A DNA stretch of 38,552 nucleotides. Source: an uncultured Clostridia bacterium (GTDB lineage: Bacteria; Bacillota; Clostridia; Oscillospirales; Acutalibacteraceae). This document shows, piece by piece, positions 1 through 10,337 of this stretch. The stretch covers positions 1 through 38,552 of the forward strand of contig CANQBP010000005.1 of NCBI GenBank assembly GCA_947589415.1, in the 5' to 3' direction. Under the pieces are notes generated by a model. It saw only the letters and a list, made by a program, of their open reading frames with translations, made no database searches and was not told the origin of the DNA. Made by a program: the position numbers and the translations under genes. Position 1 is the first letter of the stretch, and every line of letters begins with the position of its first letter.

Positions 1-1590
1 AAGGGACTCACCTGTTGGATGGCTCCGAGGGATATTCTGCCGGGAAGTGACTGGGCTGCTTCTATAAGTACCGCAATCACAACATCAAAGGTATTTCTTG
101 TTCTCTTCAGCAAGAACAGTGTTTCTTCCGAACAGGTAGCACGTGAGATAGGTGTTGCGGAGGCTAAGAAGGGTATTTTTGTTATTCCCTACAAAATCGA
201 CGATACCGAGCTTTCCGGTGCTTTCGAATATTATCTTACCGGTGCGCACTGGATAACCGCCGATTACAGCAATGGCGACTACAAATTAGAAGAACTCTAT
301 TCCATTATTGCGGGTGTTACGGGCAAATCCGTGCAGAATATCACAAACAACACTTATATTGATCATCTCCATATAAATAGTGCCGACGGCTCAAACATAC
401 AGGAGGAGATAGATAATATATCCGGATTTAACGGTGTTCCGAGAACTGCTGCAACACCGGGAAATCCGATGCAAACACAGCAAGTGCCGTCTGCTGTTTC
501 TAATAATTCTCAAATGATACCCGCCGCCGGTGACAGGGAGAAAAATAAAAACACTAAAAAGATTGTTATTCCAATAGCAGCGGGTGTAATTGCTGTTGTT
601 GCAGTATTGGTGGTAGTGCTTGTAATCTCGAACTCTTCTTCTCAAAATGTTCCTTATGATTCCTCTTCGATTAGTTCTTACGGCTATTCTTCAAGTAGTT
701 CCTACGGTCAGAGCAGCGAAATAATATATGATTTAAAAGTGACATATAGAGGTTGGGACTGCACAGGTACGTATGAAGGGGAAGTAAGCACTCTTGGCAA
801 GCCGGACGGAAAGGGCAGCTTCAAAGGAACCTATGTTGATAATGATAATAAAACGATTCAAATGACCTATGAGGGCATATTTAAAGACGGTACTATAACC
901 GGAGAAGGTATAGGTACGCAATACCTCTCGGACTATACGGTTACTTGTGACGGTATGTTTGAAAGTGGAATGTTGAACGGTGAGGCGGAACGAACCCTCA
1001 AATTCAATGGAGGAGATAAGAGTAGTGAAACTGATAAAGGCAATTTTGTAGACGGCCAACTTAATGGTGAAGGAGGATATACTGTTTATTTCCGAAACGG
1101 CGATATTTATACATTTGAGGGCACATTAGAAAATGATAAAAAACAACAAGGAACGGCGCGCCGGGATTATACAAACGGTGAATACCACATCTATGAAGGT
1201 GATTTCTACCAAGACAATGACAATAACGACCAGTACAACAACGGAACATACGAATACTATGATGCAAACGGAAGTATTACTAAAGATATAAAATACACTA
1301 ACGGGAAAGGAATGAATGCAATAGTCAATTTTAATGTAACGTACACCATAGAAAGCAATCACGGGAATGTTTCTACTATTACATGGGATTCTATACAAAA
1401 TGCGACCGGTTATGAAATTGAATATGGTGGCATAACCAAAGCAATAAATTATCCGAATTATAGTCTCTGGAACTGCTACACTAAAACTAAAGAAAGTATT
1501 AACGTCCGTGCCGTTGGAGTAAACAATGGTGAAAAGATTTATTCTAATTGGAGAGAAATCAGCTTTGAGACCCCCGAAAAATTCAATTAA
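1..1590 (+). CDS. TIR-domain membrane protein with MORN-like repeats (5' partial)
   Basis: The reading frame is open from the first base, so the true start lies upstream. The first ATG in the window (19) is internal: the same residues follow it in the downstream paralogue at about residue 32. Order of parts: most of a TIR domain (WMAPRDILPGSDW box, hydrophobic VFLVLF strand, then an NS..S..V..E motif whose Glu in AREIG aligns with the catalytic Glu of NAD-cleaving TIRs); a polar linker; one strong membrane segment (codons at about 562-630); a Ser/Tyr-rich stretch; four or more MORN-like units (YEGIFKDGTITGEG type); and a C-terminal fibronectin-III-like stretch (ITWDSIQNATGYEIEY). TIR enzymes of this class usually hydrolyse or cyclise NAD. 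Membrane anchoring and a MORN/FN3 exterior are unusual, and the substrate or trigger cannot be told. It lies in tandem with a paralogue and ends in its own terminator. Confidence 0.88.
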   Translation, partial: KGLTCWMAPRDILPGSDWAASISTAITTSKVFLVLFSKNSVSSEQVAREIGVAEAKKGIFVIPYKIDDTELSGAFEYYLTGAHWITADYSNGDYKLEELYSIIAGVTGKSVQNITNNTYIDHLHINSADGSNIQEEIDNISGFNGVPRTAATPGNPMQTQQVPSAVSNNSQMIPAAGDREKNKNTKKIVIPIAAGVIAVVAVLVVVLVISNSSSQNVPYDSSSISSYGYSSSSSYGQSSEIIYDLKVTYRGWDCTGTYEGEVSTLGKPDGKGSFKGTYVDNDNKTIQMTYEGIFKDGTITGEGIGTQYLSDYTVTCDGMFESGMLNGEAERTLKFNGGDKSSETDKGNFVDGQLNGEGGYTVYFRNGDIYTFEGTLENDKKQQGTARRDYTNGEYHIYEGDFYQDNDNNDQYNNGTYEYYDANGSITKDIKYTNGKGMNAIVNFNVTYTIESNHGNVSTITWDSIQNATGYEIEYGGITKAINYPNYSLWNCYTKTKESINVRAVGVNNGEKIYSNWREISFETPEKFN

Positions 1591-1611
1591 AAAATCCGTA
1601 CATAACCGCAT

Positions 1612-1646
1612 AAAATGCTCCCCCGTCTTTAAGGCGGGGGCATTTT
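1612..1646 (+). terminator. Rho-independent terminator of first TIR gene
   Basis: A GC-rich stem (CCCCCG paired with CGGGGG, flanked by AAAATGC/GCATTTT, loop TTTAA) follows the stop codon by 21 bases and runs into TTTTATAT. A near copy follows the second TIR gene. Confidence 0.9.
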
Positions 1647-1715
1647 ATATTAAACAGCAGAATTGACGGAAATATATAGCTCACAACAGAATAGTACAAT
1701 TTGTGACACAATATA

Positions 1716-1744
1716 TTGACTTTTTTGCGAATTTACCGTATAAT
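1716..1744 (+). promoter_or_regulatory. Consensus sigma-A promoter of second TIR gene
   Basis: TTGACT at 1716-1721 and a perfect TATAAT at 1739-1744 are separated by 17 bases. The expected transcription start near 1751 leaves a leader of about 30 bases. The strength of the match suggests constitutive expression. Confidence 0.85.
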
Positions 1745-1782
1745 TGTAAAGCTACAATTTATTTATGAAAGGGTTGGTTGTT

Positions 1783-3228
1783 ATGTCTGATGTATTTCTG
1801 AGCCATAGCTCAAAGGACAGAGAGGCTGTTGAAAAGGTGTGTGCTTTTCTTGAGGAAAAGGGACTCACCTGTTGGATGGCTCCGAGGGATATTCTGCCGG
1901 GAAGTGACTGGGCTGCTTCTATAAGTACCGCAATTACTGCCTCAAAAGTATTTCTTGTTCTCTTTAGCAGGAATAGTGCCACATCACAACAGGTCGCACG
2001 TGAGATAGGTGTTGCGGAGTCTAAAAAGGATATTTTCGTTATCCCCTACAAAATTGACGATACCGAGCTTTCCGGCACATTTGAATATTATCTTACCGGT
2101 GCGCATTGGATAACCGCCGATTACGGCAAGGGCGATTACAAATTGGAAGAGCTTTATTCCATTATTGCGGGTGTTACGGGCAAATCCGTGCAGAATATCA
2201 CAAACAACACATATATTGATCATCTTCATATCCACAGTTTCGGCGGAGCTAACATACAGGAAGAACTGAACAATATATCCGGGTTTAACAGTGTTTCGGG
2301 AACTGCTGCAACAACAGGAAATCCAATGCAAACACAACAAGTACCGCCACCGTATCAAACACAGAATACGCAGACGAAAACACCTCAACAGCAAAATTTT
2401 TCAAATCAAACACAACAAGTACCGCCACCGTATCAAACACAAAATTCGCAGACGGAAACACCGCAACAGCAAAATTTTTCAAATCAAACACAACAAGTAC
2501 CGCCACCGTATCAAACACAGAATATGCAAACGGCAACTCCCCCACCCCCACAGCAGATATTTTCAAGACCGGCACAGCAAATACCATTTTCACGTAAGAA
2601 ACAGAATCAGAATACAATGTATAATTTTAGAATAAACTATAATGGTTGGAACTGCGATGGTACATATAGAGGAGAAGTAAACGCACTAAATGCAGCTAAC
2701 GGAAAAGGCAGCTTCAACGGAGTGTATGTTGATGAAGATAACAACATAATTTCCGTTACCTATGAGGGCATATTTCAAAACAATACGATAACCGGCAAAG
2801 GTGTAGGAATACAATTCTGTTCAAAATTCGTGATTACCGATGATGGTTTTTTTCTAAACGGAAAGTTAAACGGTAAAGGTAAACAAACCGGTAAATATAA
2901 TGAAGGTGATATACTTAGTGTGACTGCAAAAGGCTATTTTGTAGACGGAAAACAAGAAAAACGCGGAAAGTATATTATTGAATTTTTAAACGGTGATTAT
3001 TTTTCATTTGTGGGCGAATTTAGAAATGACCAACGCCAACAAGGAACTGAGCGTGGGACGTATGCAAGCGGTGAATACTACATCTATGCAGGTGATTATT
3101 ACTACAAGGACAATGACGACAATGTCTATTACAACAACGGAACTTGCACATTCTATACAGTATCGGGTAATATTACCAAGCAGGAAACATACATAAACGG
3201 AAAGGTTACAAAAACATACACATACTAA
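1783..3228 (+). CDS. TIR-domain protein with Pro/Gln repeat linker and MORN-like repeats
   Basis: The start chosen is ATG 1783 (MSDVFLSHSS), not ATG 1765, because AAAGGG at 1768-1773 lies 9 bases ahead of it and the TIR beta-A strand begins there; 481 residues. Residues 1-140 are a complete TIR domain: DVFLSHSSKD, APRDILPGSDW, and Glu74 in VAREIG at the position of the catalytic Glu of TIR NADases. Residues 183-260 are three 26-residue Pro/Gln/Asn-rich units. From about 280 come MORN-like repeats (YNGWNCDGTYRGEV, YEGIFQNNTITGKG). The TIR part is nearly identical to that of the upstream gene, but this copy has no membrane segment and no FN3-like tail, so it is predicted to be soluble. It converges on the TrkA/RyR gene. 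A role as NADase or signal generator in defence is inference. Confidence 0.9.
   Translation: MSDVFLSHSSKDREAVEKVCAFLEEKGLTCWMAPRDILPGSDWAASISTAITASKVFLVLFSRNSATSQQVAREIGVAESKKDIFVIPYKIDDTELSGTFEYYLTGAHWITADYGKGDYKLEELYSIIAGVTGKSVQNITNNTYIDHLHIHSFGGANIQEELNNISGFNSVSGTAATTGNPMQTQQVPPPYQTQNTQTKTPQQQNFSNQTQQVPPPYQTQNSQTETPQQQNFSNQTQQVPPPYQTQNMQTATPPPPQQIFSRPAQQIPFSRKKQNQNTMYNFRINYNGWNCDGTYRGEVNALNAANGKGSFNGVYVDEDNNIISVTYEGIFQNNTITGKGVGIQFCSKFVITDDGFFLNGKLNGKGKQTGKYNEGDILSVTAKGYFVDGKQEKRGKYIIEFLNGDYFSFVGEFRNDQRQQGTERGTYASGEYYIYAGDYYYKDNDDNVYYNNGTCTFYTVSGNITKQETYINGKVTKTYTY
2329..2562 (+). repeat. Three in-frame 78-bp tandem repeats
   Basis: Units begin at 2329, 2407 and 2485, each starting CAAACACAACAAGTACCGCC; the spacing is exactly 78 bases (26 codons). 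Units 1 and 2 are almost identical and unit 3 diverges in its last third. They encode the Pro/Gln linker of the second TIR protein, so copy number can change without breaking the frame. Confidence 0.95.
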
Positions 3229-3262
3229 AAGGTCAGTTTAGTGACATATATAACCGCATAAG

Positions 3263-3290
3263 ATACCCCCGGTCTTTAAGGCGGGGGTAT
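3263..3290 (+). terminator. Rho-independent terminator of second TIR gene
   Basis: ATACCCCCGGTC and GGCGGGGGTAT form the stem around a TTTAA loop, followed by TTTTATAT. The flanking bases (TAACCGCATAA before, TTTTATAT after) match the terminator of the first TIR gene. It ends 20 bases before the convergent TrkA/RyR gene's stop codon. Confidence 0.9.
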
Positions 3291-3310
3291 TTTATATCAA
3301 CCGCAGTGTT

Positions 3311-5275
3311 TTACTGCTTATTTTTATTATTTATATACCTTAACATAAGCGACATTATATCATATTTATACGTAGTTTTCGTCTTTTCCCCCTGCAACAG
3401 CTTACCAATAGGCTGCAAACAGGTATGTGTTTTTTTATCATCATTTCGCACACTTCCGTATCTCCAACCCTGTGAGGCAACAAAATAACACCACCTTCTG
3501 TGTTCAAGATCGGCAATAAACCCTGCAAATTTATCGTTCATAAGAGCCTTAATAAAATCGTCCTCATTTGTCATCAATCGCCATATCTTGCCGTTATACT
3601 CCACAAGACTGCCGTTTTCCCCTATCTCGCTGTTGATCTGTTCATCAACATCTATATTAAGCTCCCTCTCCAAACGCTCAAATATGACTTGCTTAACACT
3701 TTCATGAGCAGCCAATGCCTTGCTTGAATCTCTCTTGAACATGGACGTATGATTCCAAAACTCCTCCATACTGTTCTCTTCCGACTTCCAAGGTGTTTCG
3801 TCTTTGCCGATAATTTGTATGGCAGAATAAAAATAGTGGAACTCCTTCGCCATAATATTTATCTCTTTGTTTAGTATAAGCTCCAAAGAAATAACTCCGT
3901 TCATATCGTACATAAGCTGCACATTGGAAAAAGTACGGTTGTTGGCAGATATATACTTTGCAAGTATTCTGTCGTTATCCATGCGCAATATAATTGGAGT
4001 GCCGGCTTTTCCGTCCTCGTCAAATATGTTTGCAAGCCGCATAGCACAATTCACTCCACCGTTAATATCATCAATCGCTATAACGGAATATGTGTACGGG
4101 TTTCTGGAGTTTTCCAAACGCACCTGTTCGATAAACTCCCTGTATTTTATATTCAAATTATGGCAGTTTACAATAAACGTGCCGTCTGCCGATGTATTTT
4201 TAATACGTATCGTACCTTGATCCATATAAAATGTATCCGAACTGAAACGGTTTGTAAAAATCTCCATTTTACTCTCAATGTCAATATCATATACATCTAC
4301 AACTATGGAATTTCTCTTGCTCACGACACCCAAATTCATAGCTTGTAAAAGTGTCTGCTGACCGATCGAACCAAAACCCATTATAAGCAAATGTACATTC
4401 CAGTCGTCCAGCTTAGTGTCCGTGTTCAGGTAATAACTGTGCAGCGGAAATTCATCAAACATTTTCCTTACCTGCAATTCGGGAATACTCACTATTTCCA
4501 AATCATAACAGCTTTCATTCTTGCCTATGTTATAATAATCGGCAATAAGCTCCCTTATGCTATCGTCCTCACATCTGCACGTTATTTTTGCCCCTGCCTT
4601 TAAAACAAAACGTCCGTCACCCTTTATCAGACTGAACACTTGCAGCAGTGAAAAATTCTCAACGGAATTATCATTAAAAATTATGATATTGTCTGCACTG
4701 TCCGCCTCTGCCTTTTTTAACAGATAGTGAATATCCTCACCCTCCGCTTTCAGTATGTCAAAATTATGCAGCACATAACCTTTTTTTATCAACTCATACC
4801 TTTCGGAAGAATCAAATTCCGCATTTGAAACTATATGTACCGATACTTTTTTGTTTTTCTCAAAGGAGTAGTTTTTAATCAGTGATTTCGTGCTTTCATT
4901 ATAGCCGAAGATAATTACTTTCTGCGAGGTTTTTCCTCTATGAAATATAAATACAAACCGTAAAACATTTTCCAACGCCTTATACGCAACGGCAATAGTG
5001 CAGTACGGTGCGGAAAATACCGCCACACCGTATAAATATCCGACAACATTATAAAGAAATGAATTATGCAAATCCATAAATTCTAATGCTTCTTCAAGTG
5101 AAATATCCGGAGTGAATGTAAAAGTGCTGATACTGTTATCAAAAATCAGTAAAATTCTGAAAAATACCTGCGCATCGGAATAGTACAGTACCCCCTCCAA
5201 AACGGACACGGCAAATGACGATATTGCAAGTATCAATATAAATTTGTTTGCAAATAATTTTGTTCTTTCCCCCAT
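3311..5275 (-). CDS. Membrane protein with two TrkA-N-like domains and C-terminal RyR domain
   Basis: 654 residues, start ATG 5275 preceded by GAGGTG at 8 bases. Hydrophobic segments at about residues 11-32 and 74-111 suggest two or three membrane passes. Two Rossmann-type nucleotide-binding regions follow: VIIFGYNEST from about 119 and LLIMGFGSIGQQ from about 296, the GxGxxG pattern of TrkA-N/RCK domains. Residues 585-650 read as a ryanodine-receptor (RyR, Pfam PF02026-type) domain: LEHRRWCYFVASQGWRYG, then a KKTHTCLQP stretch. The layout resembles ligand-gated K+ channel regulators, but no clear TVGYG selectivity filter is visible, so ion transport is unproven. Bacterial RyR and TrkA-N domains are known from comparative genomics to occur in nucleotide-signalling conflict systems. 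Convergent TIR genes fit that context. It could instead be an unrelated channel-like regulator. Confidence 0.82.
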   Translation of the reverse strand: MGERTKLFANKFILILAISSFAVSVLEGVLYYSDAQVFFRILLIFDNSISTFTFTPDISLEEALEFMDLHNSFLYNVVGYLYGVAVFSAPYCTIAVAYKALENVLRFVFIFHRGKTSQKVIIFGYNESTKSLIKNYSFEKNKKVSVHIVSNAEFDSSERYELIKKGYVLHNFDILKAEGEDIHYLLKKAEADSADNIIIFNDNSVENFSLLQVFSLIKGDGRFVLKAGAKITCRCEDDSIRELIADYYNIGKNESCYDLEIVSIPELQVRKMFDEFPLHSYYLNTDTKLDDWNVHLLIMGFGSIGQQTLLQAMNLGVVSKRNSIVVDVYDIDIESKMEIFTNRFSSDTFYMDQGTIRIKNTSADGTFIVNCHNLNIKYREFIEQVRLENSRNPYTYSVIAIDDINGGVNCAMRLANIFDEDGKAGTPIILRMDNDRILAKYISANNRTFSNVQLMYDMNGVISLELILNKEINIMAKEFHYFYSAIQIIGKDETPWKSEENSMEEFWNHTSMFKRDSSKALAAHESVKQVIFERLERELNIDVDEQINSEIGENGSLVEYNGKIWRLMTNEDDFIKALMNDKFAGFIADLEHRRWCYFVASQGWRYGSVRNDDKKTHTCLQPIGKLLQGEKTKTTYKYDIMSLMLRYINNKNKQ

Positions 5276-8744: not shown

Positions 8745-10337
8745 ATGATAAGAATTAACAACATTTCTCTTCCCCTTGATTATATAAATGAGGATCTGAA
8801 AAAATATGCGGCTGATGCCCTAAAAATTAACAAAAGCAATATAGAAAGCGTTTGTCTTAACAAAAGAAGTATTGACGCAAGAAAGAAAAATAATATACGC
8901 TTCAACGCTTCGTTAAATGTTATTGTTAAGGAAAATGAAAATTCCATTGTGAGAAAATGCTCCGCAGCAACAACTGTTGAGGAATATAAATATATTCTCC
9001 CCGCCTGCAAAATTTTTGAAAAGCCTCCTATAATTATAGGGAGTGGGCCTTGCGGTCTGTTTGCCGCACTTATTCTTGCGCAGGCAGGGCAAAAGCCTAT
9101 TGTACTCGAGCGGGGACGTGATGTTGACAGCAGGAGCAGAGATACAGGTAAATTTTGGAACAGCGGAGAACTCGATACAACATCAAACGTACAATTCGGT
9201 GAGGGCGGTGCGGGTACATTTTCCGACGGCAAGCTGAACACGGGCACAAAAGATGTCAGAATAAGAAAAGTACTTGAAGAATTTGTAAATCACGGTGCGC
9301 CCGAAGATATTTTGTATCTTGCAAAACCACACATCGGAACGGACAGGCTTAAATCAACGGTAAAAAATATAAGGGAAAAAATAATATCCCTCGGCGGAAG
9401 TGTTATGTTTGAAACCAAAGTAACCGGTATTGAGAGCCGAAACGGCAGAATTACTGCCGTAATCGCCGAACATGACGGAAATAAAATAAGGCTTTATTCA
9501 GATAGTGTAATTCTTGCTGTCGGTCATAGTGCAAGGGATACCTTTGAAATGCTTGTCAAAAATAATATTAAAATGGAACAAAAACCTTTTTCCGTGGGTG
9601 TCAGAATTGAACATTTACAGGAAAATATAAATATGGCACAATACGGTGAGTACTTCAAAAACATCTATCTCCCCGCAGCGGATTATAAACTTGCCGTTCA
9701 TCTTAAAAGCGGCAGAGGTGTATATACATTTTGTATGTGTCCGGGCGGCTATGTTGTTGCGGCAGCAAGTGAAAGCGGCAGACTTGTAACAAACGGAATG
9801 AGCGAATATGCCCGTGACGGAGTTAATGCAAATTCCGCTGTTCTTGTGGGAATAAATCCGAAGGATTTCGGAAGTGAGGATATACTCGCAGGTGTTGCCG
9901 TTCAAAGAAAACTTGAGGAATCCGCCTTTAGGCTTGGAGGGGAAAACTATTATGCCCCCGTACAAAGAGTTTGTGACTTTCTTAACAAAACGCCCTCCTC
10001 ATCTGTCGGTTCTGTTATTCCCAGTTACAGACCGGGATATACACTTACAAGTATTGATCGCTGTCTGCCCGAATTTATTACAGACTCCCTGCGTGAGGGT
10101 CTGCTGCTTTTTGACAGAAAACTCAAAGGCTTTGCCGACGGTGACGCTGTTCTTACTGCGGCAGAAAGCAGAAGTTCTTCCCCCGTCCGCATACTCCGTA
10201 ATGAAAAAATGCAGTCTGTTTCCATGGAGGGACTGTACCCTTGCGGAGAGGGTGCGGGATATGCCGGAGGTATCATGTCCGCCGCTGTTGACGGAATAAA
10301 AGCGGCAGAGATGATATTATTGTCGGGCACAAAATAA
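8745..10337 (+). CDS. FAD-dependent dehydrogenase (COG2509-type)
   Basis: 530 residues, ATG 8745 after GAGGTG. An N-terminal domain of about 90 residues (MIRINNISLPLDY...) precedes an FAD Rossmann motif IIGSGPCGLFAAL at about residues 97-109, then GEGGAGTFSDGKLNT and a C-terminal GEGAGYAGGIMSAAVDG that closes the FAD site. This arrangement is that of the widespread uncharacterised FAD-dependent dehydrogenases grouped in COG2509. The substrate is not known. It sits 18 bases after another flavoprotein gene, so the two probably form one operon; whether they act in one pathway is not clear. Confidence 0.9.
   Translation: MIRINNISLPLDYINEDLKKYAADALKINKSNIESVCLNKRSIDARKKNNIRFNASLNVIVKENENSIVRKCSAATTVEEYKYILPACKIFEKPPIIIGSGPCGLFAALILAQAGQKPIVLERGRDVDSRSRDTGKFWNSGELDTTSNVQFGEGGAGTFSDGKLNTGTKDVRIRKVLEEFVNHGAPEDILYLAKPHIGTDRLKSTVKNIREKIISLGGSVMFETKVTGIESRNGRITAVIAEHDGNKIRLYSDSVILAVGHSARDTFEMLVKNNIKMEQKPFSVGVRIEHLQENINMAQYGEYFKNIYLPAADYKLAVHLKSGRGVYTFCMCPGGYVVAAASESGRLVTNGMSEYARDGVNANSAVLVGINPKDFGSEDILAGVAVQRKLEESAFRLGGENYYAPVQRVCDFLNKTPSSSVGSVIPSYRPGYTLTSIDRCLPEFITDSLREGLLLFDRKLKGFADGDAVLTAAESRSSSPVRILRNEKMQSVSMEGLYPCGEGAGYAGGIMSAAVDGIKAAEMILLSGTK

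Follow-up and report, generated by a model that had tools for sequence, protein, structure and literature searches.

In Thoeris systems of types I, II and IV, a TIR protein that keeps its catalytic glutamate is paired, mostly in one operon, with a separate nucleotide-sensing effector; the TIR-made ADP-ribose signals, namely 3' cyclic ADP-ribose (3'cADPR), His-ADPR and N7-cADPR, act there on SIR2, transmembrane (TM)-macro or caspase-like effectors (PMC12847820). RyR domains are known from phages and animals. RyDEP, a phage protein of the R12 RyR family (PF02026), is a free protein that defeats Thoeris, and a 2026 preprint reports binding of 2' and 3'cADPR by RyR-domain proteins of phages, the ligand being surrounded in RyDEP by H75, W78, H100 and D117 (PMC13232231). 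RyDEP hydrolyses the signal with H75/D117 as catalytic pair; the signal was bound by six of the eight homologues tested, yet those other than RyDEP did not degrade it despite high sequence conservation (PMC13232231). Animal ryanodine receptors are channels with RyR repeat domains, and the same text implicates cADPR in their control (PMC13232231). Here we describe a locus in the first 38,552 bases of contig CANQBP010000005.1 of an uncultured Clostridia bacterium (the window; the contig totals 102,964 b and the two share their first base), where two TIR genes, TIR1 and TIR2, lie beside the gene of a 654-residue 2TM-RCK-RCK-RyR channel-like protein.

The first-pass annotation had read this locus as two TIR genes with the NADase-type glutamate (NAD, nicotinamide adenine dinucleotide) next to a membrane protein with two TrkA-N-like domains and a RyR domain, and our analysis confirms that content (Table 1), the catalytic glutamate being kept in 12 of 12 aligned TIR rows and in all 28 rows of TIR2 and its relatives. 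We consider it probable that the TIR proteins and the channel-like protein form a two-part nucleotide-signalling module. This reading is built on the predicted architecture, the conserved pocket residues and the recurrent pairing; beyond them, we infer NAD cleavage, the nature of the signal, gating of the channel, its ion selectivity and a role in defence. The division of labour is that of Thoeris, whereas the effector differs: in place of the Thoeris effectors named above stands an RyR-tipped RCK channel-like protein, in which no ThsA (SIR2-type or TM-macro) or caspase-like domain or model was found and which has no Thoeris effector match in PADLOC or NCBIfam. An ion-channel effector of a TIR signal is likewise absent from the literature matches listed, which is no proof of absence, and among the papers searched, none joins a RyR domain, a TIR domain and TrkA; ryanodine receptor and Thoeris occur together there in the RyDEP preprint and in a 2021 review of axon degeneration. 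A 2015 comparative-genomics paper is said to link these domains, and priority for the idea of their association may lie there. In a term search of the RyDEP preprint, neither "TrkA" nor "bacterial RyR" occurred (PMC13232231).

In architecture, the 654-residue protein resembles GsuK and MthK, in which a 2TM pore module likewise precedes the RCK domain(s), and CASTOR/DMI1, which has the same double-RCK ring, but it differs from these in lacking the TxGYG filter, in its additional C-terminal RyR domain and in an identity of only ~10–14%. The predicted model shows the TM1-P-TM2 and RCK ring fold of RCK-gated K+ channels, with GsuK as the closest full-length fold by Foldseek; Foldseek aligns top chains only, and the absence of a RyR chain among those listed carries no weight. 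Membership of the known K+ channels was dropped since the TxGYG selectivity filter occurs in none of 43 channel rows, the likeness of fold being retained. Animal ryanodine receptors are much larger, and the RyR repeat is the only part found to be shared with the window protein.

The RyR domain scores 30.5 bits against PF02026 (gathering cut-off 27.4) and, whereas RyDEP is free, forms part of a host channel-like protein with a TIR partner. Judged from sequence, it keeps equivalents of the four RyDEP pocket residues H75, W78, H100 and D117 at matching places, as H592, W595, H617 and D639: W595 (+3) and H617 (+25) stand at the RyDEP distances from H592, D639 at +47 as against +42, and the equivalence was assigned by motif, spacing and RyR alignment, for D639 by motif only. 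H592, W595 and D639 are present in all 20 rows of alignment A3 (Bacillota and Fusobacterium), while position 617 is H in nine, N in ten and T in one of them, and H or N in alignment A1. The proposal that a TIR product acts on the RyR/TrkA membrane effector thus stands in part: the domain keeps the pocket of a family shown in the preprint to bind TIR-made cADPR isomers (PMC13232231). For SpbK defence, it is stated that a receptor of N1-cADPR, if N1-cADPR acts, must be encoded elsewhere in the genome (PMC12847820), and canonical cADPR is therefore a fair candidate ligand. Contig C2 of the window's own genome carries a stand-alone 93-aa RyR-like gene (L086 7863..8144, +); a frame that by eye resembles nadA (quinolinate synthase) lies ~1.1 kb upstream of it.

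In the mechanism that we propose, the TIR proteins, with a cytosolic TIR domain and a C-terminal MORN or other repeat part as sensor, would be triggered by a cue and turn NAD+ into a signal of the ADP-ribose type, most likely a cADPR isomer. The C-terminal RyR domain of the 2TM-RCK-RCK protein would bind this signal, the RCK ring would relay binding and open a pore with a non-potassium filter, and the open pore would depolarise or leak the membrane, so that the cell stops (abortive infection or stress arrest). That a TIR-made cADPR isomer directly gates an ion channel via a ryanodine-receptor-type domain, as a prokaryotic counterpart of the animal cADPR–RyR pathway in which the TIR sensors are interchangeable and the channel effector is conserved, is in our judgement an evenly balanced proposition.

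The channel family is rare. It was found in one of 300 genomes of the window's family (single-sequence query, E <= 1e-10), 2/394 of the order (1e-20), 3/300 of a second family (1e-20), 8/391 of the class (1e-15) and 3/398 of the phylum (1e-12), the own genome being counted in each of these samples except the second family, and in 10/32 of family f32 (1e-20; the copy of G1272 is in two pieces on two contigs). Further loci are L014, with the same coordinates in G1322, and one Fusobacterium vincentii record; beyond that record, plasmids gave nothing, viral contigs, phages and an Rfam scan gave nothing of use, and a third protein search added two proteins without consequence. Among the 20 distinct channel genomes, the surroundings were inspected in 15, and in eight of these, from seven genera and two phyla, a TIR gene lies beside the channel gene, three times with a 3-base gap or an overlap. 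Besides the window and L014 (channel 95% identical), these are G441 and Fusobacterium (3-b gap each), G1262 (11-b overlap), G1468 (66 b), G1261 (225 b; channel in two frames, metagenome-assembled genome (MAG) 77% complete) and G888 (829 b). In six loci besides the window, the two genes are same-strand neighbours, from the 11-b overlap to the 829-b gap, whereas the window pair is convergent. By profile, no TIR lies beside the channel in six loci (five f32 genomes, one on a 3.7-kb contig, and G938); G898 is uninformative, its contig ending at the channel 5' end, with no TIR on the other side. TIR and TrkA/RyR are thus associated in other families and in Fusobacterium as well, frequently as closely spaced gene pairs, and the lack of a conserved neighbourhood, offered earlier as a refutation, is not what the 15 loci show.

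Some of these loci hold further genes. In G1468, the third gene after channel and TIR encodes an AAA+ ATPase (L084 4812..7004, −) with its own C-terminal RyR domain (45.7 bits), possibly a second RyR effector or regulator. Between channel and TIR of G888 lies a 190-aa frame on the opposite strand (L020 7979..8551, +), which may or may not be a gene. G898 carries three consecutive TIR genes (L046 208..8098, −), by eye two with an NLR-like nucleotide-binding middle and TPR-like tail and one TIR-TPR.

TIR_2 matches number one to three per genome in 11 genomes scanned, including five of the eight with a TIR beside the channel, and a TIR within 1 kb of a given gene has a chance of 0.0015–0.007 per genome. 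The product over seven loci, ~1e-17, is a guide and not a test, as loci are taken as independent, only TIR-bearing loci are counted and three TIR genes are assumed for Fusobacterium and G1468. Family f32 provides a test independent of this estimate. There, a TIR-TM-WD40-like protein of ~920–1,080 aa, encoded on a different contig from the channel, is found in all ten channel genomes versus two of 22 others (E <= 1e-20; 20 without a match at that threshold), the exceptions being G1289 (matches to the N-terminal part, frames up to ~1,040 aa; 82% complete, 7% contamination) and G1079 (a 67-residue match). Fisher's test gives 1e-6, and 0.01 within genus g373 (5/5 versus 2/9), shared ancestry inflating the former more than the latter. 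Coincidental linkage, the caveat of the first-pass annotation, is rejected for the family by the eight of 15 loci and the f32 co-occurrence, and is kept as a competing reading for the TIR pair of the window itself.

The f32 loci themselves carry points that weigh against a module. In the five inspected, the channel sits in a fixed neighbourhood and not beside a TIR. By eye, a radical-SAM frame resembling SCIFF maturase adjoins the channel in all five loci (L033, L034, L036, L037, L038), with secD/secF-like frames beyond it in four; the fifth contig ends. This fixed chromosomal place favours an alternative in which the channel senses the NAD(H)/ADP state via its RCK domains, either responding as TIR drains NAD+ or being a general ion-homeostasis protein co-opted by TIR genes. 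RCK2 indeed keeps GxGxxG and D330, and GsuK, the closest full-length fold, has been solved with NAD and with ADP, by structure titles; this alternative leaves unexplained that five of the 11 invariant A3 columns fall in the RyR domain and that TIR-WD40 proteins co-occur in f32, and we regard it as improbable.

In the module as we read it, one effector kind goes with several TIR kinds. In the TIR tree, which has several long, tool-flagged branches, the TIR-WD40 proteins from Fusobacterium, G1262, G1261 and f32 form one group (support 92/91), and both trees place Fusobacterium and G1262 together (100/99). Outside this group are the TIRs of the window, G441, G888 and G1468, several of them with unsure placement. 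Partner tails are WD40 in Fusobacterium and G1262, a TM helix without Pfam tail in G888, and without Pfam tail in G1468 and G441, that of G441 being MORN-like by eye only; window TIR2 has no significant BLAST similarity to the G441 TIR (E 0.13). A MORN tail was therefore ruled out as a defining feature, and with the same-strand pairs elsewhere, MORN tails and a convergent layout fall away as general features. Several TIR subfamilies for one channel kind would match the expectation for a module with exchangeable sensors. The TIR domains of G441, G888 and G1261 weakly resemble type III Thoeris (NCBIfam ThcB4, 29–40 bits; best 39.8, cut-off 220), none of the 20 channel rows matches a Thoeris model, and no text describing type III is among the literature matches listed.

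The history of the locus was examined against L014 in 300-b blocks. The channel gene is 94–98% identical, tsf and rpsB, which lie upstream of it in the window, 86–90% (leaving out a last block of 33 b at 100%), and the TIR pieces 66–92%; channel dN/dS is 0.14, with dS 0.15 versus 0.69 for tsf. These values fit a channel gene that was exchanged between the two species by transfer or gene conversion, and TIR genes that change faster. L014 has broken or fused TIR genes and an intact channel, which weighs against a module and is compatible with the RyR protein being an off-switch or antidote that, like RyDEP, acts on the TIR product as a sponge or hydrolase, here at the membrane, and so keeps the cell safe from the TIR that it makes. 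The RyDEP catalytic pair described in the preprint is matched by H592 and D639, yet signal degradation was seen there in no tested homologue but RyDEP (PMC13232231), a sponge needs no 2TM-RCK-RCK body, and the gene stands apart from any TIR in the inspected f32 loci and in G938; an antidote is thus rather unlikely.

Further points against a module concern TIR and channel genes that occur apart. In sister species G1335 (MAG 78% complete), a single, divergent TIR-MORN gene adjoins tsf and the channel is absent from that site; this gene (L060 9789..11696, +) is without the CWMAPRD stretch of the window TIRs and keeps the catalytic glutamate. Away from the channel, TIR domains of the window's group are found once in L045 and twice in L046, G938 has a channel without TIR by profile within the 7.6–8.6 kb inspected on each side, and among 109 TIR2 and 43 channel relatives listed, many on short contigs and with only the longest per cluster given, a single pair has a matching longest contig. 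That pair, P0005 (channel) and P0068 (TIR), both at 9,236 b, was not counted as evidence of a shared contig, 0.26 coincidences being expected by shifts. In addition, a pore without a K+ filter leaves conduction a presumption. In one alternative, the neighbourhood in the window is accidental, the family pairing with other TIR kinds elsewhere and the window's TIR-MORN genes being independent and merely sharing a site downstream of tsf, in keeping with the G1335 locus, with the TIR domains away from the channel and with genes that are convergent and not in an operon. Yet the channel is found in just one of the 300 family genomes, it is accompanied by window-type TIR sequence in both species of the genus known to carry it (own genome and L014/G1322), and TIR2 matches of at least 55% identity occur in two of 51 genus genomes, the same two (weaker ones in six more; the search for the channel did not extend to all 51). 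At 16 further tsf loci of the genus, some on short stretches, there is no TIR or channel. Of the alternatives, we give an accidental neighbourhood the least credence, and continue to favour a signalling module.

With regard to the TIR proteins, the MORN-like parts of TIR1 and TIR2 are 50% identical, and the tail qualifies as MORN by fold or Pfam. In the predicted TIR2 structure, the linker is of low confidence and the beta-meander domain matches Morn1 structures. Contig C75 carries a third TIR paralogue of 946 aa, whose 3' end is open; its linker is longer and repeated, so that linker size varies among paralogues. It shares with TIR1 (residues ~192–210 of the cut frame, its single TM helix) a hydrophobic helix between TIR and MORN part, which TIR2 lacks. 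Lysines or arginines precede this helix, suggesting that the tail is outside the cell where such a helix follows the TIR domain, and this would point to an envelope cue. The promoter-like site just before TIR2 suggests that TIR2 is driven by its own promoter, and 82 bases separate the convergent open reading frames of TIR2 and the channel-like protein.

Table 1. Coordinates of the TIR and channel-like genes, their domains and nearby signals in the window.
Feature	Position	Strand	Remarks
TIR1: TIR domain, TM helix, MORN-like part, FN3-like end	1..1590	+	5' end cut by contig start; FN3-like by eye
Terminator-like hairpin after TIR1	1620..1640	+	Consensus match only
Promoter-like site directly 5' of TIR2, 11/12	1716..1744	+	Consensus match only
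TIR2: TIR domain, disordered P/Q-rich linker, MORN-like beta meander; no TM helix	1765..3228	+	Complete gene
TIR_2 domain of TIR2, catalytic Glu80 (= Glu74 counted from second Met)	1792..2121	+	
78-b (26-aa) in-frame tandem repeat in TIR2 linker, 2.7 copies	2329..2537	+	
MORN-like domain of TIR2, residues 282–486	2608..3222	+	
Terminator-like hairpin between the convergent genes	3264..3289	.	By eye
654-aa 2TM-RCK-RCK-RyR channel-like protein	3311..5275	−	
RyR domain, residues 586–640, with H592, W595, H617, D639	3356..3520	−	
RCK2-like Rossmann domain, residues ~292–475; GxGxxG 300–305 and D330 kept	3851..4402	−	
RCK1-like Rossmann domain, residues ~117–270, nucleotide motif degenerate	4466..4927	−	
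Membrane part: helices 3–31, 37–51, 60–69, 73–111, read as TM1, pore-helix-like, TM2	4943..5275	−	Predicted

The action of cADPR on ryanodine receptors, both its existence and its mode, has long been debated. The RyDEP preprint bears on this question with RyR domains that bind 2'/3'cADPR (PMC13232231). If gating by a TIR-made signal holds true, the channel would represent a host-side use of a domain found in phages in the form of free sponges and glycosidases. A small bacterial RyR–RCK channel fusion beside a TIR enzyme would make ligand, pocket and gating testable with few purified proteins. As the pairing of TIR with a RyR channel recurs in distant bacteria, our findings suggest that bacteria may possess a route from TIR signal to channel that resembles the animal cADPR-to-ryanodine-receptor axis.

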